Source: Butyribacter intestini
GTDB taxonomy: Bacteria > Bacillota > Clostridia > Lachnospirales > Lachnospiraceae
DNA length: 64,000 nucleotides
NCBI GenBank assembly: GCA_001414325.1
Contig: LLKB01000001.1
Location: 124,001 to 188,000 of the forward strand
Direction: 5' to 3'
Part shown: one piece after another, positions 13,496 through 27,136 of the stretch
Layout of the letters: each line of letters starts with the position of its first letter
Position numbering within the stretch: position 1 is the stretch's first letter
The notes under the pieces: generated by a model
What the model was told of the DNA's origin: nothing
Seen by the model: the letters and a program-made list of their open reading frames with translations, nothing else
Databases searched by the model: none
Program-made: the position numbers and the translations under genes

Positions 13496-13948
13496 AGAAG
13501 ATGCCGTTATAAATATAATGATGCGTTTGGAAAAAGGAAGTCGGTATATAGTTGGAGACTGACTGAATCTAATCCATACCCAAAGGGTAAACGCAAGGAC
13601 ATTTCCCTTAGAGAGAAAGAAAAAGAAGTTGAGAAAGCATTGAGAGATGTAGTTACAACGAATGGTGGGAATATGACGGTATTAGAATTGGTACAAAAGT
13701 ATATAAGTCAAAAAAGAGGTGTAAAGCATAATACGAAGGCGAATTATAATTTTATTATCAATGTGATAAAAAGTCGTGGGATAAAAGGTATGAAAATAGC
13801 CCAGAATTTAGCCCAAATGAAGGACAAGTTATGCAAAGTTATTAAAAATTATGCTGAAAATGTGAACAAAAGCACTATCACAGAAATATTGCAGAATTGT
13901 TGTAAGTGCCGAAAATACAGTAAAATCAAGCGTTTAGAGAGGATTTAG
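13496..13948 (+). pseudogene. N-terminal fragment of a Tn916-type tyrosine integrase
   Basis: Reading from about 13496 gives RYKYNDAFGKRKSVYSWRL, ESNPYPKGKRKDISLREKE and a SAM-like start (NMTVLELVQKYISQK), as in the arm-binding and core-binding region of Tn916/Tn1549-like integrases. The true N-terminus is missing and homology fades after NVIKSRG, so only about 100 residues remain. No start codon fits the frame before 13640. The catalytic C-terminal part of a like integrase lies 2 kb downstream. It begins one base after the stop of the FHA-like gene, which marks a probable junction of the island. Confidence 0.7.
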
Positions 13949-13951
13949 ATA

Positions 13952-13996
13952 TATGATAAAAGTACTTTTCATCTGCCACGGCACTCCAGTTTTATG
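13952..13996 (+). pseudogene. 5' fragment of a low-molecular-weight phosphatase gene
   Basis: ATG at 13952 encodes MIKVLFICHGTPVL then a stop. It matches the first ten residues of the intact phosphatase at 21163 (MIRVLFICHGNICRS), and the DNA is near-identical over TTCATCTGCCACGGCA. It is too short to function. Confidence 0.6.
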
Positions 13997-14224
13997 ATAA
14001 TGCATATCTTCGCAGACTGGGGCAGAGTACGGCATAATATGGCGGAAAGCCTCGGAATTACTACGGTTTCGACTACTAAGGCTCATGGCAGAATCGGGGT
14101 AAATGCAAAGGTGTGGGGAGAAATTCTTAGTAGTAATGAACTACTTACAGGCAATGTAATAGAACTTGTAACGATGAAAATGCGGAAAAAATATAAAAAC
14201 TATTGCAATTTTTCTGAGTTTTGA
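13994..14224 (+). CDS. short open frame, doubtful, possible gene remnant
   Basis: A 76-residue frame. The middle (LGITTVSTTKAHGRIGVNAK then VWGEILSS) is faintly like the C-terminal OB fold of NfeD-type proteins, but this is not firm. No good ribosome binding site precedes it, and its 3' end overlaps the promoter of the abiF RNA. It lies between two broken genes and is probably not functional. Confidence 0.2.
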   Translation: MIMHIFADWGRVRHNMAESLGITTVSTTKAHGRIGVNAKVWGEILSSNELLTGNVIELVTMKMRKKYKNYCNFSEF

Positions 14225-14231
14225 ATATACT
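14203..14231 (+). promoter_or_regulatory. promoter of the abiF small RNA
   Basis: TTGCAA (14203-14208) and TATACT (14226-14231), 17 bp apart. Transcription would start at about 14238, immediately before the structured RNA. Confidence 0.7.
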
Positions 14232-14237
14232 ATATGT

Positions 14238-14301
14238 AACAGAGTTGCCCGAAGTCTTTTGGACATTGGGGACCAAGCTGAGTCGTGTGCTCAGCTTTTT
14301 T
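14238..14301 (+). ncRNA. abiF-type small RNA, candidate RNA antitoxin
   Basis: About 64 bases lie between a near-consensus promoter and a terminator made of AAGCTGAG (14275-14282), a seven-base loop, CTCAGCTT (14290-14297) and a T run. The 5' part, TTGCCCGAAGTC then TTTTGGACATTGGGGACC, can form a short GTC/GAC stem and CCC/GGG pairing. A structured RNA directly upstream of abiF genes is known (the abiF RNA motif), and RNA antitoxins have been reported for AbiF. The open frame that could extend AbiF upstream crosses this RNA and is not a coding extension. Confidence 0.65.
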
Positions 14302-14319
14302 ACGTTAAGGAGAGATTTT

Positions 14320-15210
14320 ATGGATTTGAAAAAACCATTGACCTTTGATGAACAGTTAGATAAGTTAATAGCTCACGGGATGATTGTCGCTGATAGAGAA
14401 AAAGCAAAAGATATATTAAAAAGAGTAAATTATTATCGTTTTACGGGGTATGCTTTGCAATTCAGACAAGAGCCTTCTGGTAGTGACTATCTTGAAGGAA
14501 CTACTTTTGAAACGGTGTATCATTTATATAAAGTAGATGAAATATTGCGTGATACATTTCGGCGGTATATCGAAAAGGCAGAAGTATATTATAGGACTCA
14601 GATAGCATATGGATTTTCAATAGCCAAATGTACGGAAGCCCCATATGATCAGCATTACGATGAAAATAATTTCTATAACAAAAAGGGTTACAAGGAAGTT
14701 ATGGAAAATTTCAGCAGGGAGAAAAATTATTACAAAGATAGTCTGATTGTGAAACATCACAAGATAAAATACTCCAGCAAAATGCCGTTGTGGGTTATTG
14801 TAGAATTAATGTCTTTTTCTAATATGTCTAAATTATACAGCTCTATGTATTATTCAGAAAAAGATGTCATTGCTCATATGGTTGGTGTTGGAAGAGATAC
14901 ATTAGAAAATCATCTTCATTGTTTATCGGTTTTACGAAACAAATGTGCACATGCGTCTAGAATGTATAATACAGATTTTAATCCTCCGGCAAAGTTTACA
15001 ACATCATTTTTGAGAAAACATCCAGAAATAAAGAATAATTCATTATTCGCGTATACATTAGTCTTGCTAAAAAGACTTCCAGATGAAGAGAGTAAGAAAT
15101 CTTTGGTGCAGATAGTGGAAACAGTGATAGATGAATACAGAAATGATATTGATTTGGAGTTGATTGGTTTCCCAGAGAATTATTTGGAAATTATGAATAA
15201 TAATTTGTAA
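14320..15210 (+). CDS. abiF: AbiF/AbiD (Abi_2) abortive-infection protein, HEPN RNase
   Basis: The 296-residue protein is of normal length for Abi_2 family proteins. It has the N-terminal KPLTFDEQLDKLIAHGM and RVNYYRFTGYA blocks and the HEPN catalytic RX4H motif in RNKCAHASRMYN (Arg206, His211). HEPN Abi proteins cut RNA and stop growth or phage spread. The start is ATG 14320 with AAGGAGAG at 14308-14315. The small RNA upstream likely restrains the toxin. Codon use favours TTA over the CTT seen in core genes, which fits transfer. It is the first apparently intact cargo gene in the island, lying between the two integrase fragments. Confidence 0.85.
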   Translation: MDLKKPLTFDEQLDKLIAHGMIVADREKAKDILKRVNYYRFTGYALQFRQEPSGSDYLEGTTFETVYHLYKVDEILRDTFRRYIEKAEVYYRTQIAYGFSIAKCTEAPYDQHYDENNFYNKKGYKEVMENFSREKNYYKDSLIVKHHKIKYSSKMPLWVIVELMSFSNMSKLYSSMYYSEKDVIAHMVGVGRDTLENHLHCLSVLRNKCAHASRMYNTDFNPPAKFTTSFLRKHPEIKNNSLFAYTLVLLKRLPDEESKKSLVQIVETVIDEYRNDIDLELIGFPENYLEIMNNNL

Positions 15211-15225
15211 AATAAGAATAAACAA

Positions 15226-15259
15226 CCACTTTTCGTTAGCAGTAATCTATGAAAAGTGG
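15226..15259. terminator. hairpin after abiF
   Basis: CCACTTTTC (15226-15234) pairs perfectly with GAAAAGTGG (15251-15259). No T run follows on either strand, so termination is uncertain. Confidence 0.4.
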
Positions 15260-15295
15260 CTATATAAAATGTCAAGACTGAATGTACAAAAAATA

Positions 15296-15811
15296 TTATA
15301 TAAAAATGTACCACTTTACAACTTTATAAATGGCCCCATGTTTCCTAAATGCTTGTTTTATAGCACTTATCACGGATTTTGATTTTATTTGGGTTTCGAT
15401 ATTTTGTACGAAACCAGTGAAAAATATCTGCTTACGGATGCCCTCACTTATGACAAAACTGCCTGTGGGTGCCGGTGCCAGATCATAAATGACAGAGTCT
15501 GACCTTGCATTACCGATCAGGTCAAGATTAGGGTATTCGTCAACAACGGAAACAAGACTCTTTTTCATATACCATCTGTCACAAAGGACGATAACATTTT
15601 TCTTTTGTGAAAATTCAGGCATAATCTGGCGGACCATAGATGCGGCAAGCTGCAGTTTTGATTCTTTTTTCTGCCACATCCTGTAACCTAAAGGTACAGC
15701 AAGACAGGAAATCCTGTTGTGTTTCCAAACCGGTATGCAGAGCATCAGACTTACAAAACAATGACCATTTAAGTAATTAGAGCCATTGTGGGCAGCATGG
15801 TCAAAAAGCAT
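15296..15811 (-). pseudogene. DDE transposase remnant
   Basis: On the minus strand, FDHAAHNGSNYLNGHCFVSL, LAVPLGYRMWQKKESKLQLA and VIVLCDRWYMKKSLV followed by NARSDSVIYDLAPAPTG match a family of IS4-like DDE transposases from Firmicutes. The N-terminal third is absent, and after PAPTG the sequence leaves the expected path, so it is truncated at both ends or frameshifted. No terminal inverted repeats were found. It sits convergent to abiF inside the split integrase. Confidence 0.7.
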
Positions 15812-15975
15812 TTAAAGATTTCTAAGTTATTCCGGATAAAAAATGCTGATACAGGAATCTTATTGAATGAACTGATTCCAAAGCCAATATTGAAAGTACC
15901 AGTAAAAACAGTGTATCTGCGGTAGGTGCAGGAAAAGTTTTAAAATAAAAAAATATTGATTTAGTCTACCAATTA

Positions 15976-16338
15976 GTGTGTTTTCGTTGTATAATAGGAA
16001 TGCCACTGGTTGCTATGCACTGGGAACACAGATTTAATAATATGGTCGGCAGATACAATGATATTTATCGGGTACAGATGCAAAATATCACACCCCATGT
16101 ATGCCGTCATACATATTGCAGCAATATGGCGAAATCGGGAATGAATCCTAAGACACTACAGTATCTGATGGGACATTCGGATATTGCCGTGACACTTAAT
16201 GTTTACACCCATGTTGGACTTGAGGATGCAGAGAAAGAATTTCAGAAGATGCAGGGGTTGGAAAATGCAAGAAAAGAGATGGGACTTTCGGACAAGGACG
16301 ATAAGCCTTTGAAACAGAATATGTTCAAGATGGTTTAG
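15976..16338 (+). pseudogene. C-terminal catalytic fragment of a tyrosine integrase
   Basis: From about 15997 the frame reads GMPLVAMHWEHRFNNMV, then ITPHVCRHTYCSNMAKSGMN, YLMGHSDIAVTLNVYTHV. This is the catalytic end of a Tn916-like integrase, with Arg and His of box II (RHTYCS), His of LMGHS and the nucleophile Tyr in NVYTH. The first catalytic Arg and everything before it are missing; a GTG at 15976 opens the frame but encodes unrelated residues. It may belong to the same gene as the fragment at 13496, separated by insertion and deletion. Confidence 0.75.
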
Positions 16339-16356
16339 AATAAAAATATGATTGAT

Positions 16357-16396
16357 AGCTGGCACTCAGGCAGAAATGCTTGGGCGTCAGCTTTTT
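16357..16396 (+). terminator. terminator after the integrase remnant
   Basis: AGCTG (16357-16361) pairs with CAGCT (16388-16392) with further interrupted pairing inside (GGCA / TGCT), followed by TTTT. Confidence 0.65.
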
Positions 16397-16480
16397 GTTC
16401 CATAAAGATAAGATATAGTGAAAATCACTATATATAGGCATTTTTATTGATAGTACTTAGGAATAATGCACTAAAAGGGA

Positions 16481-16509
16481 TTGATAAAATCTCATTAAAG
16501 GTATAGAAT
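16481..16509 (+). promoter_or_regulatory. promoter of the riboswitch-controlled operon
   Basis: TTGATA (16481-16486) and TAGAAT (16504-16509), 17 bp apart, put the transcription start near 16516, directly before the aptamer. Confidence 0.65.
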
Positions 16510-16515
16510 ACATAT

Positions 16516-16629
16516 ATCAGATTTTAGCAAAACATTCGAAAGGATGTGACGCAAAACTATAGGACATAAGCAAGTATGTGGTATCCAGTTGCACGTTCAT
16601 TGCATTGCTAAAATAGCAGTGCATTTTTT
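16516..16629 (+). promoter_or_regulatory. c-di-GMP-I riboswitch with intrinsic terminator
   Basis: The leader carries the class I (GEMM) landmarks: AGCAAAACATTC-GAAA-GGATGT (a 6-bp stem, 16532-16547, capped by a GNRA loop), then GACGCAAAAC (16548-16557), then CTATAGGACATA...TATGTGGTATCCAGTTGC, close to clostridial aptamers. GCAA (16527-16530) pairs with TTGC (16589-16592) as P1. The expression platform is TGCATTGCT (16601-16609), loop, AGCAGTGCA (16615-16623) and six T. TTTTAGCAA (16522-16530) is the exact complement of TTGCTAAAA (16605-16613), a 9-bp antiterminator that excludes both P1 and the terminator. Ligand binding should therefore favour termination, an OFF switch. Confidence 0.8.
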
Positions 16630-16650
16630 AATGTTGGAGGTAATTGAACT

Positions 16651-16821
16651 ATTGACGGATATATAACAATCAACGAGGTTGCTGAAAAATGGGAAGTAAC
16701 TCCAAGAAGGGTACGAGCTATGTGTTTGAATGGACAGATAGGTGGAGCAGCAAAATTAGGAAGAGAATGGGCGATTCCAACGGATGCAGAGCGTTCACAA
16801 GATGGTCGTATTGCTCTATAG
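16651..16821 (+). CDS. small HTH (excisionase/MerR-like) DNA-binding protein, ATT start or degraded start
   Basis: The 56-codon frame encodes DGYITINEVAEKWEVTPRRV, then LNGQIGGAAKLGREWAIPTD, a helix-turn-helix of the excisionase/MerR-like (HTH_17) type, nearly full length. GGAGG (16636-16640) lies ten bases before ATT at 16651, where homologues would have ATG; a stop (TGA) in frame lies six bases upstream of that ATT. Either it uses the rare ATT start or the start has been lost by mutation. It is the first gene after the c-di-GMP riboswitch and would be a natural regulator of the operon. Confidence 0.5.
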   Translation: MDGYITINEVAEKWEVTPRRVRAMCLNGQIGGAAKLGREWAIPTDAERSQDGRIAL

Positions 16822-16858
16822 GAGAATAGAAAGATTGGAGAAAGGGGGAGAGGATGTT

Positions 16859-17584
16859 TTGAAAAGATTATATGCACCTACTCAAGAAATTTATTGTTTT
16901 ATAGGTTTTAATGATTTTATTATAGGTCAGTTGCATAAATATTTGATGTGTCAAGGTGGAAATTTGTTTATTACTGATGAATTTAAATCGTTTTATTATA
17001 TCAAGGAAAATGTAAAAGCAGATATTTCATATTTTTTAAATTTGATTTTTGAAGAGGATTCAATGGGATTTATACCAGTTAAAAGAAACATTAGAATTAC
17101 AAGTGAGGCATTGATTGATTTATATAATTTAGTTTATGTAAACGAGTATAAAACTGTTCTTCAATATATGGAGAATCGTCACAACTATAGTTTCAATGAA
17201 AAATTTAAAAAATATTGTTATAGAGGTGATTTCACAATACAGTCAAAGTTAAACATTGCAAAGGATAATGGATTTGGTAACGAACTTGATTTTTTAAAAA
17301 ATGGTTTATTAAAGGAAACTAATAAGTATATTCATGCTAGTATTTTTGTTCAACCTAATAATTATGATTTTGATTCCAAATTAGGAGAAGCTAAGGCGTT
17401 GTTACAATTAGAACTAAAAATTTATCAATTGGCTCTTAAAATTCTTTGTAACAAATATAACTTTGATATTAGTTTATATACATATAATTATCAGGCACCT
17501 TTTGAACAGGTATATAGTTATTGCGTTGAAAAAATAAAATGTATGTATTTGATTGATATGCAAAATCCATATAGTTTTATATGA
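16859..17584 (+). CDS. unknown protein of the riboswitch operon
   Basis: A 241-residue, very AT-rich gene. The start is set at TTG 16859 after GGGGGAGAGG; the frame can run upstream to 16784 but would overlap the HTH gene. No signal peptide or membrane span. The protein is rich in Tyr, Phe, Asn and Lys. The segment ETNKYIHASIFVQPNN near residue 165 looks like a conserved core, but no family was recognised. It overlaps the next frame's first possible ATG by four bases, so the genes are translationally linked. Confidence 0.6.
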   Translation: MKRLYAPTQEIYCFIGFNDFIIGQLHKYLMCQGGNLFITDEFKSFYYIKENVKADISYFLNLIFEEDSMGFIPVKRNIRITSEALIDLYNLVYVNEYKTVLQYMENRHNYSFNEKFKKYCYRGDFTIQSKLNIAKDNGFGNELDFLKNGLLKETNKYIHASIFVQPNNYDFDSKLGEAKALLQLELKIYQLALKILCNKYNFDISLYTYNYQAPFEQVYSYCVEKIKCMYLIDMQNPYSFI

Positions 17585-17604
17585 AAGAATGGGGAAAGTG
17601 CGAA

Positions 17605-19722
17605 ATGAGTGATTTATCAGTATTAAAAACGCAAAGAGATGATTTATTAATAGAGATTCATGAAATAGAGGAATCTTGTGAAGGGATAGAGAATGAAAAT
17701 AATGCAAAGAGAATACAAGAATTAAATCTTGAACATGCACAGTGCTTGGTACAAAGACAAGAAATGTCTTCTAGATTAGATGAGTTAGATGGAAAAATAT
17801 CAAGTATAAATGAAGAAATTGCTAAACTGTCAGGAACCGGAGTTGACAGGATTCTTGAGGCGATTAAGAATCAGAGATGGTATTTTTTTAAGAATAAAAC
17901 GAAGGTGTTGATGGATAGAGATACGGGAATTTTATGGCCTAATTTAGCATATTATAATTGCTGTAAAGATGATAATGGAAAATATTATGCATATAACGAA
18001 TCATACTCAAAGATATATGAATATGAGATTGATGGATTCAAAAAATGGGATATTCCATGTCAAAAAGAAGTAATAGATTTATTGGATGATTATACTTTTC
18101 CATATTCAATAAATAAAAGTGGGTCACATGAAATATTAAATAATGGGTTTGTATGTAGTAGATTACGAGTTAAAGATCATAATAATACTTCTGTTATGCT
18201 GTACAATTATAGGAAAAGAATGTATGGAATTCAAGCGGATTATGGATGCACAGAATCTTCTTGTTGGTTACCTATGACAAGAACACTAATTGAAGGCGTG
18301 GATTATCAAGAAAATGTTTCACCTAATAATCCTAATTATACCGAAAAAGAACGACTACAATTTACTTTAGATTTGTTCACTCAAAATGAATTATGGCCAA
18401 TCTTTGATGATGAAGAAATTACTGAATTATACAAAAAAATATATTTTGAGAAGCCGAAGTTGTTAGCTCAATTGCAGGAACTTCAATCTCAGATTGAAGA
18501 ACTTCAGACAGTAACATTGCTTTCATCAGATTTTGACTATACAGCATTATTAGCGAAGTATGATATAAAGGCAATTGACGATTCCATCATCAAGTATTAT
18601 CAGGCAGTGCAGCAGTGGTGTACTGAGCTTATGGAAAAGTTAGACTATTACGAAGACGAGAAGGCTTCTGTAATAAAGGATTTTAATTTGATCAGTCTTA
18701 AGCTTTCAAAGAAATATGAAGATAATCCTAATCTTACGAAAGATGAGAATGCGTTACTTCGGAATAGACAGAGATTCTTCCAGAAAAAATTCTCACTTAG
18801 GATGAATAGTATTAAAGCAAAGATTCTTGCTGTAAAGAAACAGGCAGATGATTTGGAATACAGAATAGATGAGATTGACGAGGGCGTAAATTCTATATGT
18901 GAGTTGGCAGAATTAGAACAGGAAAAAAGAGCAAGTTTTTCTTTTATAGCAGAAAATACGGCAAAGATTATAAAAAATGCACTGCTAAAGATTGAATACT
19001 TTGAGGATAATCATTCCTTTGTAATGAATGCAATAAATTTATGGGAGAGTTGGACAGAAGATTATAGGGTATTCAAAACAACATATAAAGAAGATATGAA
19101 ACATGACTGTGAAGACGATGGAATCGAAAAAAAAATATGGTCAAGCTGGTATCAGGATTGGCAACAGTTGAGATATGCCATTGAACTAAAGATGCAACCC
19201 GTTATTGAACGAGGCTTAAGAGGTTCTATGCCAACCAATAGCGAATTAGAAACTTCTGTTCCAGAACAGCTTATCGCAGTTTTGGAGGAATATAAAAATC
19301 AGATTGACAGTTTTTATCAAGAAGAACGAAAAGGTATCTATCAGAAATTTGCGTTTCAAGCTGGTGGAGAATTGCAGGATAAATTTGAAACAGAGAGTAG
19401 TATTTATAAATATGTGTCAATGTTTCAGTCGTCATTACAGGATATTATTTTTAATTGTAAGAATGTAGAGGATAGGGTTTGGATTTTGAATTGGGCAAAC
19501 AGTTTGCTGGATATTCAGATAGATGAGATTTTAGATTTTGTTGCGGATAATGATCTGCAGAAGATATCTCATACCATTTTGGATGAGTTTGCTTCGCTGA
19601 AACAAAAGAATTATGATATTTATCTTGCAGATGTAAAGGCGTATAGTGAAGAAAAGGCAAGGCGTGAAAAGGAGTATAATTCTCTTATTTTCAAAATGCG
19701 TAAGGATTTGATGAAACAGTAG
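17605..19722 (+). CDS. large coiled-coil protein of the riboswitch operon
   Basis: The 705-residue protein opens with a coiled coil (about 1-75) and then a module with MDRDTGILWPNL and FKKWDIPCQKEVIDLL (about 95-160), the pattern of DUF1566/Lcl-type domains (TGL-W ... W-lP ... EL). A long helical coiled-coil stretch follows (about 280-470) and the rest is helical. No signal peptide or membrane span. The start at 17605 follows GGGGAAAG; ATG 17581, overlapping the previous stop, is an alternative. TTA and TTG are common leucine codons, unlike the core genes. Cytoplasmic scaffold or sensor is a guess. Confidence 0.6.
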   Translation: MSDLSVLKTQRDDLLIEIHEIEESCEGIENENNAKRIQELNLEHAQCLVQRQEMSSRLDELDGKISSINEEIAKLSGTGVDRILEAIKNQRWYFFKNKTKVLMDRDTGILWPNLAYYNCCKDDNGKYYAYNESYSKIYEYEIDGFKKWDIPCQKEVIDLLDDYTFPYSINKSGSHEILNNGFVCSRLRVKDHNNTSVMLYNYRKRMYGIQADYGCTESSCWLPMTRTLIEGVDYQENVSPNNPNYTEKERLQFTLDLFTQNELWPIFDDEEITELYKKIYFEKPKLLAQLQELQSQIEELQTVTLLSSDFDYTALLAKYDIKAIDDSIIKYYQAVQQWCTELMEKLDYYEDEKASVIKDFNLISLKLSKKYEDNPNLTKDENALLRNRQRFFQKKFSLRMNSIKAKILAVKKQADDLEYRIDEIDEGVNSICELAELEQEKRASFSFIAENTAKIIKNALLKIEYFEDNHSFVMNAINLWESWTEDYRVFKTTYKEDMKHDCEDDGIEKKIWSSWYQDWQQLRYAIELKMQPVIERGLRGSMPTNSELETSVPEQLIAVLEEYKNQIDSFYQEERKGIYQKFAFQAGGELQDKFETESSIYKYVSMFQSSLQDIIFNCKNVEDRVWILNWANSLLDIQIDEILDFVADNDLQKISHTILDEFASLKQKNYDIYLADVKAYSEEKARREKEYNSLIFKMRKDLMKQ

Positions 19723-19734
19723 GAGGAAAGTCCT

Positions 19735-20979
19735 ATGAATGATAATATCATAGCAAAGTCACCAGTGATAAATGTAGAGTTTTTGGTTGAAGAAAGCTGG
19801 AGTCAGAGAAAGCCTAAAATGGGGGATCATATCAGAGTTAAGCGTATAGGTGGATTATATGCTCATCATGGAATATATGTTTCTGATAAAGAAGTGATTC
19901 ATTTTACAGGAAAAGAGGATGACAGCATATTGGATTGGTCGAAACCGGAAGTGATATCGTCTGATTTAGATTATTTTTTAAAGGGGGGCATTTTGGAAAT
20001 TAAAGAATACACGGATGAAGAATTTCTAGATTTGTATTCACCAGAGCAGATTGTTACATATGCACGAGCTTGTCTGGGAGATAAGGGATATCACTTAGCA
20101 TTTAATAATTGCGAGCATTTTGCTAATGTATGTACTTTAGGAAGATTTAGAAGTAATCAGGTTGAAAGAGTATTACTGGGGAAATTACCAAATGAACAGG
20201 AGGATAAGAATATGGGACTTTTAGGAAAAATTGGTGGAGCGATTAAGAGTTTATTTGGTGGTGGAAGTTCAGGTGGTGGTGGAAGTCGTTCTACCACTAC
20301 ATATGAGCCGGATAAAGTAAAGGTTGCAGAGATTGAGGCTGATACAAAGATTCGTCTTGCACATATGGAAACTGATCGTATTGAGATTATGAAACAGGCG
20401 AGATTGGATATCCTTCAATTTGAAACAGAGAGCCAGATTGCTTTAGAGCAGGCGAGAGCACAAGGACTGACAGTGATGGCACAGACAATTTTGACATTAC
20501 AGGAGAAACTTAATGAGGTGGCTGAGAAAAGATTGCTCATCATTGAGAAAGGCTCTTTGCAGGTGGTTAAGGATATTGAGAATTTTTATGATGAATTGGG
20601 AACAAAAATTCAAGAGGATGATGATAGATATAATACAGAGAAACTACCTGAGCTGTTGTCAATTCTTGAAAAATACGAGGAAGATTCGCCTTCTCATAAG
20701 ATTTATATGAAGAGAATTGAAGAGGATATGGCATTACAAGCTAAGCATTATACTCATCAGATAGAAGCTATTTCTCAAAGACAATCACAGATCATTGAGG
20801 GATTTTTACAGAGTAAAGATAAGATTTTAGAGCAGACAGGACAGATTACAGCCGGAATGCTTGAAACAATACAGAATCAGACATTGGCACTTGGTATGAA
20901 TAGAAGCCAGAGTGAAGAAAATAGTGCGGCACTACTTGGCGAAAAGGAAAAGTTGGCACTTCCGGGAGAAAATGAATAA
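19735..20979 (+). CDS. LRAT-domain (NlpC/P60-like) protein fused to coiled coil
   Basis: Residues about 25-150 form an LRAT-type papain-like fold: GDHIRVKR, YAHHGIYV (His45), VIHFTG (His56) and FNNCEHFANVC (Cys126), giving the His-His-Cys triad of LRAT/HRASLS acyltransferases and lipases. After a Gly/Ser-rich hinge (about 172-190, FGGGSSGGGGSRS) there is a long coiled coil (about 195-395). An internal ATG near 20212 (MGLLGKIGGAIK), after AGGAGG at 20200, could give a separate coiled-coil protein. The gene begins 12 bp after the previous one with its own GGAGG. It may modify lipids or N-acylate amines; its role in the operon is unknown. Confidence 0.75.
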   Translation: MNDNIIAKSPVINVEFLVEESWSQRKPKMGDHIRVKRIGGLYAHHGIYVSDKEVIHFTGKEDDSILDWSKPEVISSDLDYFLKGGILEIKEYTDEEFLDLYSPEQIVTYARACLGDKGYHLAFNNCEHFANVCTLGRFRSNQVERVLLGKLPNEQEDKNMGLLGKIGGAIKSLFGGGSSGGGGSRSTTTYEPDKVKVAEIEADTKIRLAHMETDRIEIMKQARLDILQFETESQIALEQARAQGLTVMAQTILTLQEKLNEVAEKRLLIIEKGSLQVVKDIENFYDELGTKIQEDDDRYNTEKLPELLSILEKYEEDSPSHKIYMKRIEEDMALQAKHYTHQIEAISQRQSQIIEGFLQSKDKILEQTGQITAGMLETIQNQTLALGMNRSQSEENSAALLGEKEKLALPGENE

Positions 20980-21029
20980 TACTATTGATGGGGAGTTATT
21001 CTTCAATAAAAATAATAGTTTTATTATAT

Positions 21030-21060
21030 GGTGTGTAAAATCAATTAGCACACCCTTTTG
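21030..21060 (+). terminator. terminator of the riboswitch operon
   Basis: GGTGTG (21030-21035) pairs with CACACC (21049-21054), followed by CTTTTGTT. Moderate strength. Confidence 0.5.
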
Positions 21061-21162
21061 TTAAATAATGCACACCCCCATCCGTAGTCTGAACCCCCTT
21101 AACTGACTACGATTTGACTACTACACACGGCATTACAGGGCATTTCAGAACAGGAGAATTTT

Positions 21163-21627
21163 ATGATTAGAGTATTATTCATCTGCCACGGCAATATCTG
21201 CCGCAGCACAATGGCACAATTCGTTTTTCAGGACATGGTAAACCATGCCGGTCTTGCCGATGAATTTTTCATCGACTCAAAAGCAACCAGCACGGAGGAA
21301 ATTGGCAATCCACCGCACCGTGGCACGGTTCGCAAGATGAACGAACTTGGCATACCGATGCAGCCGCATTTTGCATCGCAGGTCACAAAGAGTGACTACA
21401 ACAAATTTGATTATATAATAGGAATGGACAAGTGGAACTATAAGAATATGATGCGTATTTTTGGCGGTGACCCAGATGGGAGGGTGTCGCTTCTTCTTGA
21501 ATTTGCGGGAAGTGGCAGGGATATTGCCGACCCGTGGTACACGGGAAATTTTGATGACACATACAGAGATGTAAAAGAGGGATGCGAGGCACTGTTATAC
21601 AAATGTGTCGGTGAAATTAAAGCCTGA
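21163..21627 (+). CDS. low-molecular-weight protein tyrosine phosphatase
   Basis: The 154-residue protein has the P-loop CHGNICRS (Cys8, Arg14) right after the first strand and the general-acid loop DPWYTGNFDDTY. Length and layout match LMW-PTPs, which remove phosphate from tyrosine (or arginine) residues in the cytoplasm. CAGGAG precedes the ATG. It closes the island. A 45-bp piece of a very similar gene start is found at 13952, next to the other integrase fragment, so the phosphatase gene may mark the element's insertion point. Confidence 0.9.
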   Translation: MIRVLFICHGNICRSTMAQFVFQDMVNHAGLADEFFIDSKATSTEEIGNPPHRGTVRKMNELGIPMQPHFASQVTKSDYNKFDYIIGMDKWNYKNMMRIFGGDPDGRVSLLLEFAGSGRDIADPWYTGNFDDTYRDVKEGCEALLYKCVGEIKA

Positions 21628-24625: not shown

Positions 24626-27136
24626 ATGGATGGAAAAATTTTTGAAAAGCTTATTGAGGTGTCAGAGTGTGCATTCTTTATTTCAAAGCCGGGCGGCGAA
24701 ATGGAAATAACATATGCAAGTAAAAAATTTTATTCAATATTACAATACACAAAAGAGGAGTTTCAGGAGAAGTTCAAAAACAGTCTTATGGCTGTAATCC
24801 TGCCGGAAGAAAAACAGAAAGTTAAAAATCTTATAGCAAGACAGTTTGCAGCCGGCGGTGCAGTAAACATTGAATGTAGGGTAAAAAGAAAAGATGGGAC
24901 TACCGCATGGCTTTCAATTTCAGCGAAAACCCTGTTACATATGTCGGAAAACAGATTTTTCTGTTCCTGCCTGGACATAACAAAATCCAGGAACAATGTT
25001 GAAAATATGTTTAAGGCAAAACATGAGATTGATGTTATCGCAAACAGTATTCCGGGAGGAGTTTTGAAAATCCGTATGAAAGATATGAAGATTCTTTATG
25101 CCAATGACGGATATTATATGTTGTCAGGGTATTCGAGAGCCGAATTTCATATAAATTTTGGAGACTACTGTGATAAAATAATTTATCCTGCTGACATGAA
25201 GATGGTTAAGAGTGTTTTTGGAACGACTGTCGAGAACAATGGTCTTCTTGGTTTTGAGCATCGCATCGTTGGCAAGACCGGTCATACAAAATGGCTTTAT
25301 GTGAACGGCCGCAAGATTGATGATGAGAGCGGTGAGGATGTATATTTATGTGTTCTTATGGATGTTACATCCAGAAAAAGCATGGAGGCAGAGTTTGAGG
25401 AGAATATAAGAAGATTTAAGTATGTCTCAGAGTATCTAAAGGAGACTATGTGGACATATGACATAAATAATAAAACTTTTACGAGGAGTGGAAGTCTCGG
25501 CGAATCTTTTTCAAAAGAAAACTTTTTAAGGACATGGGATGACATGCCTGAGATGCTTGAACTTTTCCATCCGGATGATGCAAAGATATTTGAAAAGAAT
25601 GTAAAAAACAGAATTGAAAATATTGGAAGCAGCCGCTATATATATAGGATAAGAGATAACAGTTCAATGTTTAGAAATGTTGAGATATGTGCCGTGTCTG
25701 TATCTGATAATGGCAATGATAAGCCGGATAAAATTTATACGGTTACCAGACTTGTAGATAATGCCGAAGAAATTTCATCAAGACTCGACCATGAGAGAGA
25801 AGAGATTTCAGAGCGCAACAAGCTTGTAAATATGGCTAAGTCAGCACAGGCACAGGCTGAGGACAATATTACATCACTTATGCCGTATGCTTCATTTATG
25901 AATAAGGCAGAAAAAATTCTTAGTAAGAGAAAAGAAAAAGAGCATTATGCACTTGTATGTGCCGATATAAATGAGTTTAGAAAATTCAGCCATCATTATG
26001 GTTTTTCAATAAGCAACAGGATTTTGGAAGAATTCTCAAAAACACTTCTCAACAATCTTGCAAAAGAGGGTGTTTGCTCACGAGTTGACGGAGATTATTT
26101 TGTATTGCTCACAAAATATGAGAGTCACAAAGAGCTTCTGCGTATGATGTCCGAGATGGTAAGAGCAAGAAATGTTGCTGAGGAAGAAGAAAAGGATGTA
26201 AATATAGAGTTTGGAACTACCACGGGAATTTATCTTGTTCAGGAGTCAGACTGTGAACTGCTTGAAATGCTTGAAAAGGCAGATATGGCAAGAAGAAGTA
26301 TAAAAGGGCTTCGTGGAAACCATTATGCGATATATACCGATGACCTTAAGAGTGAGCAGTTCAAGGAAGAAGAAACAATAAGTGAAGTTTATGATGCGGT
26401 AAGAAATAATGATATAGAGATATGCTATATGCCTAGAATAAAAGGTGACAGGGAAAAGATTGTCGGCTGCAAGGCTGTTCCAAGAGTACAGTTAAAGGAT
26501 GGTCATGTCCTTGAATCTGATGAATTGACAAGACTTATCGAGCGTGGCGGAAAACTGAGCAGTTTTGCATTGGCTACTTTATCGACCGTATGCTGCAGCG
26601 TCGGGGCATGGAAAAAACTTGGAAACAAAATCGTGCCGTTTTCAATAGAAATGACGGCGAGCGAGCTTTCAATACATAATGTTGTCAAAAAAATAGATGA
26701 TATTGTTGTTGAAAAGAACGGACTTGAACCAAAGGATGTTATCATAGAAATTCAGGAGAGGTATCTTGCGGACATGACAACGGTGCTTGAAATGGCAATA
26801 GAGAAGCTGTGCGGCATGGGTTACAATGTAGTTATAAGCAGATTTGGAACAGACCACACGGCTATCCACTCTATCAGAAAGTTAAATGTAACGGGAATCA
26901 AGTTCCACGGAGAGTATTTCAATGAATACATGACATCGGAGAAAGAGTGCATTATATTGAGTAAGACCGTTGAGATGGCAAAGAGTCTTGGTCTAACAGT
27001 TACCTGCGGAGGAATACACACACCTATGCATGAGGAATTTGCCAAAAAGATAGGCTGCGAGATGTTTGAGGGTGATATGTATTACGGTGCAGTCAGGGCA
27101 AATGTATTTGAAAAATGTTTTCTGTCAAATTTATAA
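24626..27136 (+). CDS. PAS-GGDEF-EAL protein with both catalytic motifs degenerate
   Basis: The 836-residue cytoplasmic protein has three PAS-like modules (about 1-130, 135-265, 270-385), a coiled linker, a GGDEF-like domain (about 425-580) and an EAL-like domain (about 590-836). The GGDEF signature is replaced by RVDGDYFVLL, and the EAL motif by GCKAVPRVQ; the later DDFGTG site reads SRFGTDH. It should neither make nor break c-di-GMP, and may act as a sensor scaffold or protein-binding partner of the kinase encoded 21 bp upstream. AAGGGGGA precedes the ATG. Confidence 0.82.
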   Translation: MDGKIFEKLIEVSECAFFISKPGGEMEITYASKKFYSILQYTKEEFQEKFKNSLMAVILPEEKQKVKNLIARQFAAGGAVNIECRVKRKDGTTAWLSISAKTLLHMSENRFFCSCLDITKSRNNVENMFKAKHEIDVIANSIPGGVLKIRMKDMKILYANDGYYMLSGYSRAEFHINFGDYCDKIIYPADMKMVKSVFGTTVENNGLLGFEHRIVGKTGHTKWLYVNGRKIDDESGEDVYLCVLMDVTSRKSMEAEFEENIRRFKYVSEYLKETMWTYDINNKTFTRSGSLGESFSKENFLRTWDDMPEMLELFHPDDAKIFEKNVKNRIENIGSSRYIYRIRDNSSMFRNVEICAVSVSDNGNDKPDKIYTVTRLVDNAEEISSRLDHEREEISERNKLVNMAKSAQAQAEDNITSLMPYASFMNKAEKILSKRKEKEHYALVCADINEFRKFSHHYGFSISNRILEEFSKTLLNNLAKEGVCSRVDGDYFVLLTKYESHKELLRMMSEMVRARNVAEEEEKDVNIEFGTTTGIYLVQESDCELLEMLEKADMARRSIKGLRGNHYAIYTDDLKSEQFKEEETISEVYDAVRNNDIEICYMPRIKGDREKIVGCKAVPRVQLKDGHVLESDELTRLIERGGKLSSFALATLSTVCCSVGAWKKLGNKIVPFSIEMTASELSIHNVVKKIDDIVVEKNGLEPKDVIIEIQERYLADMTTVLEMAIEKLCGMGYNVVISRFGTDHTAIHSIRKLNVTGIKFHGEYFNEYMTSEKECIILSKTVEMAKSLGLTVTCGGIHTPMHEEFAKKIGCEMFEGDMYYGAVRANVFEKCFLSNL

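Follow-up and report, generated by a model that had tools for sequence, protein, structure and literature searches.

A GEMM-I riboswitch leader before a three-gene cargo operon in a genomic island of Butyribacter intestini: a candidate OFF switch

The DNA considered here is a window of 64,000 nucleotides (nt) from the 3.6 Mb genome of Butyribacter intestini (contig LLKB01000001.1; G000:C1:124001-188000), with coordinates counted from its first base. Within it, a leader with the features of a class I cyclic di-GMP (c-di-GMP-I, or GEMM-I) riboswitch precedes the remnant of a small helix-turn-helix (HTH) gene and three cargo frames, termed P2, P3 and P4; labels beginning with G and L denote the genomes and loci of relatives. 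A covariance search, as proposed in the original prediction of a GEMM/c-di-GMP-I aptamer, bears that prediction out, returning a match to RF01051 at 16516-16596 on the forward strand (44.0 bits against a gathering cut-off of 35 bits; E-value 2.5e-5 over the whole window). This is the sole RF01051 match in its own genome at an E-value of 0.001, with 150 of 221 first-look candidates scored. Under stricter filters, at least one c-di-GMP-I match is present in 34 of the 99 genomes searched, the window's own included, and in two of 28 genomes of the genus (the window's and G027).

With regard to the positions relevant to ligand specificity, the aptamer keeps the first A of GACGCAAA (A47) as well as C92, whilst position 20 (16526), where G would indicate c-di-GMP specificity, is occupied by A (A20). 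The strand expected to read AGCC, which we take to be the tetraloop receptor, reads ATCC. Among 81 aptamers that could be parsed (22 could not), 79 carry AGCC or AGCT, and ATCC occurs in the window only, the one further odd row being a mis-parse. Because ATCC stands where the others have AGCC or AGCT, a loss of aptamer function is possible. Position 20 was set as the base before GCAAA, using known aptamer sequences checked against the residue lists in PMC7288161, which give C46, A47, A48, A49 and G50 with G19 and G21 for class I, and A14 and C15 for the cyclic GMP-AMP (cGAMP) structure.

The surroundings of the aptamer have the anatomy of a transcriptional switch. The promoter-like site TTGATA-17-TAGAAT (16481-16509, forward strand; consensus match only) agrees with the consensus at 10 of 12 positions and is well placed ahead of the aptamer; the predicted near-consensus promoter is upheld to this extent, although such sites are no commoner than in shuffles (23 found against a mean of 23.7). 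Behind the aptamer lies an intrinsic terminator (16601-16629, forward strand) with a 10-pair stem and a T6 tail (-12.9 kcal/mol), in agreement with the T-tailed terminator first described. The sole terminator-like site found within 16300-21200, called at 16601-16623, is this one; since shuffles average 0.9, a single site is what chance would give, and it is the position that supports the terminator. The antiterminator is likewise present, on the forward strand, with a 5′ arm at 16521-16530 that overlaps the aptamer strand around GCAAA and a 3′ arm at 16605-16614 that overlaps the 5′ arm of the terminator, its perfect complementarity extending to 10 bp, A20 included, and not to the 9 bp initially given. 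When the downstream 60 nt are shuffled with dinucleotides preserved, four of 2000 shuffles attain such a length; among mononucleotide shuffles, six of 5000 do so. For the transcript up to 16616 the minimum-energy fold is the antiterminator (-21.4 versus -16.4 kcal/mol with 16605-16616 unpaired), and the full leader favours the terminator (-26.0 versus -21.4 kcal/mol). Conservation of the antiterminator was rejected as unproven following a shuffle test in eight other leaders, and lends no support here because their complements are not clearly better than chance; for the longest complement in the G317 leader, 1836 of 2000 shuffles are as good.

These folds and arms support an OFF-type anatomy, and fit an OFF switch for P2-P3-P4. 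Because the aptamer strand around GCAAA also serves as an arm of the antiterminator, binding of the ligand should favour termination. In the predicted scheme, transcription would start near 16516 and yield the GEMM-I aptamer. Without ligand, 16521-16530 would pair with 16605-16614, such that the terminator is blocked and polymerase reads into P2-P3-P4; with ligand, the aptamer would hold 16521-16530, the terminator would form, and the operon would be off.

As to which molecule is bound, c-di-GMP is the most likely ligand, albeit not an assured one, because GGDEF domains are numerous in the genome and no synthase for cGAMP was recognised there. Sixteen GGDEF matches are present, and in none of the 15 that are readable is the Ser typical of Hypr enzymes seen by eye. 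A search for SMODS cyclases, whose controls respond in 3 of 14 cases, gave no match in the genome; the absence of a recognised cGAMP synthase refers to SMODS and GGDEF proteins, other synthase types not having been searched. A c-di-GMP-II search of the same genome also gave no match, but as the controls of that search gave none either, absence is not shown. Shortly downstream of the island that holds the operon, a GGDEF protein with a degenerate GGDEF motif and, by eye, an EAL-like part is encoded at 24626-27136.

Since position 20 is A, binding of c-di-GMP may be weaker, or may be shared with 3′,3′-cGAMP. The same residue underlies an alternative to which we give little credence, namely that the aptamer senses 3′,3′-cGAMP, or both messengers. 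All 26 other aptamers of the first locus set have G at this position; a G20A class I RNA binds cGAMP according to PMC7288161 and PMC6274999, and A20G converts a Geobacter cGAMP switch to c-di-GMP, as stated in PMC6456294. Against this alternative are the lack of any SMODS cyclase or Ser-type GGDEF found in the genome and the ordinary targets that A20 aptamers of the family precede by eye, these being PAS or response-regulator signalling proteins and surface proteins, along with an operon in G194 headed by an A20 unit and encoding a MotA-EAL fusion, where EAL is a c-di-GMP-type domain. The notion that A20 is unique to the window was rejected, given that a scan of 397 family genomes for the A20 pattern gave 37 sites, spread over 33 of the genomes (reversed-pattern control, one site); one of the 37, in G225, looks coding. 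By hand count, at least five A20 aptamers are among 41 c-di-GMP-I matches in 61 family genomes; a later set of 80 aptamers, in which the A20 search has raised the share of A, comprises 58 G20 and 22 A20, and A20 is found at four of 67 sites in IMG/VR pattern matches. The original claim that c-di-GMP turns the operon off is supported in its OFF-type anatomy; with A at position 20, c-di-GMP as the ligand is probable and not assured.

The three cargo frames are all open and tightly packed on the forward strand, as anticipated for an operon behind the riboswitch. P2 (16859-17584; 241 amino acids, TTG start) has no match in Pfam, PADLOC, NCBIfam or PHROGs. P3 (17605-19722, its reading frame opening at 17581; 705 amino acids) consists of a helical or coiled-coil frame around a hypervariable insert: identity to the relative at L048 is 74 % over alignment columns 1-108, 26 % over the insert (109-236) and 89 % over 237-713. 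The insert has a weak Lcl_C/DUF1566 match, with E-values of 0.04 in the window and 0.047 in L043, both below the cut-off; three of the four relatives scanned (L048, L046 and L040) have no Lcl_C match, and a P3 profile found nothing in the PDB. P4 (19735-20979; 414 amino acids) displays an LRAT/PLAAT-like domain at residues 26-137 (PF04970; 87.9 bits against a cut-off of 24.3, 8.3e-25), followed by a long helical region. An NCEHF Cys with an upstream His is present, and H45, H56 and C126, to which we presume catalytic roles, are invariant in three rows. In the PDB, residues 25-145 align with 4dpz (7.4e-10), the HRAS-like suppressor/PLAAT phospholipases being nearest. Structure models are of low confidence, with a mean predicted local distance difference test score of 44 for P3 and 54 for P4, and the helices of P4 rest on such a model. 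Exact peptide patterns, which would reveal close relatives only, did not find P2, P3 or P4 in IMG/VR, nor was P3 found in plasmids, whilst partial P4 matches (30 % of its length) occur in two Acinetobacter phage records.

From their sequences, P3 and P4 resemble a sensor-effector pair, the former having a recognition-type insert and the latter being a hydrolase or acyltransferase of the LRAT/PLAAT kind. Judged by this modularity and by the neighbouring genes, the pair is plausibly related to defence or competition. We consider it rather unlikely that P3-P4 is instead an adhesion or surface system under the usual motile-sessile control of such riboswitches, as might be proposed from the weak Lcl_C-type match and from the many GEMM-I targets in the family that look by eye like surface or signalling genes. 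Neither P3 nor P4 shows, by eye, a hydrophobic signal sequence at its N terminus; the LRAT/PLAAT domain, an AbiD neighbour, and an HEPN_AbiU2 gene lying between P3 and P4 in L046 (30.8 bits against a cut-off of 26.8; no PADLOC match) also argue against that role.

Homologues of the cargo are scarce. P3 matches were obtained in five of 392 genomes of the order, the three named relatives being filed as Lachnospiraceae bacterium, Hungatella and Ruminococcus metagenome-assembled genomes, and P4 matches in eight of 299 family genomes, nearly full length only in the window and in G317. In the latter genome, which belongs to another genus, a G20 GEMM-I leader is followed immediately by P3 (59 %) and P4 (80 %), with no HTH gene. 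That leader has its highest score, 52.1 bits, with the c-di-GMP-I-GGC model, short of the cut-off of 59, and shares the GCATTG type of terminator arm with the window. Taken together with the window, the riboswitch/P3-P4 pairing has therefore been found twice. GEMM-I precedes P3 in two of five loci, a count which leaves out L046 and L047 (no upstream sequence), the partial G478 (no match) and the weak G098.

Between the riboswitch and P2, the remnant of an excisionase-like HTH_17 gene (16651-16821, forward strand) scores 26.6 bits against a cut-off of 27. Its frame, 16651-16818, has no ATG, GTG or TTG start before the HTH domain and stops ahead of the tail conserved in relatives; the gene is broken in the window and, owing to the missing start and early end, coding of an HTH protein by the operon, as originally claimed, is not confirmed. 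The window piece resembles phage excisionases (PHROG 2655, 1e-8), an NCBIfam excise match being below cut-off. When the leader DNA (16340-17590) was compared with 378 family genomes, 35 matched, mostly in the aptamer core alone, with leader and HTH gene matched together in G631, G103 and G194. The HTH protein profile matches 240 of the 378 genomes, hence the HTH family itself is common. A c-di-GMP-I aptamer lies just upstream of the HTH gene in seven of the 30 loci listed (G631, G103, G194, the window, G185, G031 and G361), and also at a second G631 locus, C43. In total, the unit of GEMM-I and an excisionase-like HTH gene of approximately 70 amino acids is seen at eight loci in seven genera with different cargo. 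Upon removal of the loci tied to the query (L195-L198 and L204), three of 25 remain, against 0.018 expected from the family aptamer density of 41 in 187 Mb (Poisson P ~9e-7). The units in the window, G194 and G631:C43 are A20, and the other five G20.

A GCATTG/GCATCG terminator arm is found in six of the eight HTH-linked leaders and in four of 72 others (G317 among the four), linkage having been assigned by hand. This tally is partly circular, since it includes the query itself, namely the window, and two leaders (G631 and G103) that were picked up through their DNA similarity to it; the arm is present in all three HTH-linked leaders found independently (P 5e-4). Phages and plasmids gave only short core matches to the leader, in two and one records, respectively. 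A viral contig (L145) also carries a GEMM-I stretch with this terminator arm, there ahead of a gene that is histidine-kinase-like by eye, and not of the P2-P4 cargo. On the strength of these comparisons, the leader is seemingly one copy of a portable unit that recurs in the bacterial family before different cargo.

The variety of that cargo is considerable. In G103 it comprises a WYL regulator, a PDC-M40B-like protein, a coiled coil and an AAA protein; this operon (L188 1734-6999, reverse strand) is itself a candidate defence operon. G631:C43 has a WYL protein and G631:C7 two proteins with no Pfam match, G031 has an AAA_14/DUF4143 protein, G185 by eye an ABC transporter, and G361 by eye housekeeping genes. 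The G194 unit is followed by VanZ, MotA-EAL and a SpaA-type surface protein. Here a MotA/ExbB channel is fused to EAL (L228 9628-11169, reverse strand) behind the A20 riboswitch and HTH gene, PADLOC scoring the channel part as ZorA-like (2.6e-17), and the adjoining gene combines SpaA domains with a weak ZorB-like N terminus. At L193 (G185:C2), a gene of no assigned function directly follows a GEMM-I leader whose terminator arm is GCATTG, and the genes thereafter look, by eye, like antitoxins.

That all eight loci share the HTH gene, with varied genes downstream and, in G361, by eye housekeeping genes adjoining it, could mean that the true target was the excisionase-like gene, as a factor for excision or a local regulator, and that read-through into the cargo is incidental. 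This we regard as improbable, since the riboswitch in G317 stands directly before P3-P4 without an HTH gene and no further terminator-like site was found up to 21200 in the window.

The riboswitch and its cargo lie in an island of 7.2 kb (13984-21161) flanked by 32-nt direct repeats of 88 % identity on the forward strand. The left repeat (13952-13983) duplicates the beginning (5′) of the gene at 21163, and the right one (21162-21193) is the start of this low-molecular-weight phosphatase-like gene, which suggests integration at its 5′ end. Also on the forward strand are the AbiD (Abi_2) gene at 14221-15210 (PF07751 2.1e-46; AbiD 7.2e-85), the sole PADLOC match among the nine island proteins scanned, and a C-terminal tyrosine integrase fragment at 15976-16338 (PF00589 4.5e-14, profile positions 104-168 of 172). 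The repeats, AbiD and integrase fragment agree with the mobile-type island initially supposed. Pfam found no complete integrase in the island, and as only the C-terminal fragment matches, present mobility is doubtful. Upstream of the left repeat, a frame at 13640-13948 resembles by eye the N-terminal part of a tyrosine integrase (no integrase match in Pfam), and a possible DDE transposase remnant lies at 15296-15811 on the reverse strand (DDE_5 E-value 0.005, below the cut-off). In the 14 kb considered of G013, an integrase (84 % DNA identity) and AbiD (92 %) lie between the same flanking genes, and nothing matches the riboswitch operon; with other cargo between the same flanks, this place may be a hotspot of integration in the genus. 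The G013 island contains a repeat-like stretch inside, and the repeat finder returned no direct repeats in the matching stretch.

On balance, we lean towards a GEMM-I OFF switch, most likely responding to c-di-GMP, that controls P2-P3-P4 in the island by way of a portable leader whose HTH gene is broken. Because of that break, the switch would act in the window on the cargo alone, with P3-P4 made when c-di-GMP is low. Several findings weigh against this. A20 is combined with an ATCC unique among the 81 parsed aptamers, the aptamer scores lowest of the eight that are HTH-linked, and the gene adjoining the riboswitch has decayed. Moreover, in eight other leaders the antiterminator does not clearly exceed what shuffles yield (best 87 of 2000 shuffles, G185), and no PADLOC model matches P2, P3 or P4. 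The closest P3-P4 pair, in L048 (77 % and 90 %), has no GEMM within 7 kb upstream, and none precedes P3 in G400 (1.5 kb) or G410 (0.5 kb); the expectation that the same leader would head homologous operons accordingly holds for G317 and fails at these three loci.

The low score, the ATCC found in one of 81 aptamers and the broken HTH gene and integrase might instead signify a decaying riboswitch, in which the leader is blind to its ligand and the messenger level has no bearing on whether P2-P4 are expressed or silenced. We doubt this explanation, as the promoter-like site, the terminator and the 10-bp antiterminator with its A20 are intact, and the frames of P2, P3 and P4 remain open. Returning to the OFF switch, the features first reported (aptamer, terminator, antiterminator and cargo frames) are confirmed, the HTH protein excepted, and their interpretation is partly supported.

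More tentatively, the GEMM-I and HTH unit could place acquired and partly defence-like operons under a cyclic dinucleotide, such that sessile cells (high c-di-GMP) switch them off, and A20 may tune or change the signal. If so, a cell-wide second messenger would set when acquired defence-like genes are expressed, by means of an RNA element carried along with those genes. Natural A20 GEMM-I aptamers outside Geobacter could also reveal sensing of cGAMP, or relaxed sensing of c-di-GMP, in these bacteria, and P3, with its conserved frame and hypervariable insert, is a candidate recognition protein.

In comparison with known systems, the leader has in common with RF01051 the fold, the GNRA loop, GACGCAAA, C92 and a terminator-coupled platform, and differs from it in A20 and in ATCC for AGCC. 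The best clan match of the G317 leader, c-di-GMP-I-GGC (RF03167), has G in GACGCGAA where that leader has A, taking the GGC of the name to denote this consensus. A20 is shared with the cGAMP (GEMM-Ib) riboswitches of Geobacter, compared at position 20 only; these differ in that no cGAMP synthase was recognised in the window's genome. P4 aligns with the PLAAT/HRASLS phospholipases of the LRAT family, but is bacterial and has a long helical, coiled-coil-like C-terminal half. Within the open-licence literature, no report was found of such cargo under RF01051, of the riboswitch-HTH unit or of the riboswitch/P3-P4 pairing, nor any paper on an LRAT domain in bacterial phage defence or on c-di-GMP-I in Lachnospiraceae. 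Class I riboswitches on mobile DNA are nonetheless known. As described in PMC3649979, PMC11477304 and PMC7699646, two Clostridioides difficile prophages carry a class I riboswitch driving an antitoxin RNA, and elsewhere in one of these prophages there is an HTH-17 excisionase. There is hence a precedent for cargo controlled by a c-di-GMP riboswitch, first thought unusual (PMC11477304, PMC7699646). A conflicting study, cited in PMC7699646, describes a C. difficile prophage riboswitch with no c-di-GMP response. According to the same paper, cdi1_4 and cdi1_5 of these prophages resemble the leader described here in being class I riboswitches on a mobile element that act by termination as OFF switches, and differ in driving a type I antitoxin RNA and not an HTH or P3-P4 operon (PMC7699646).

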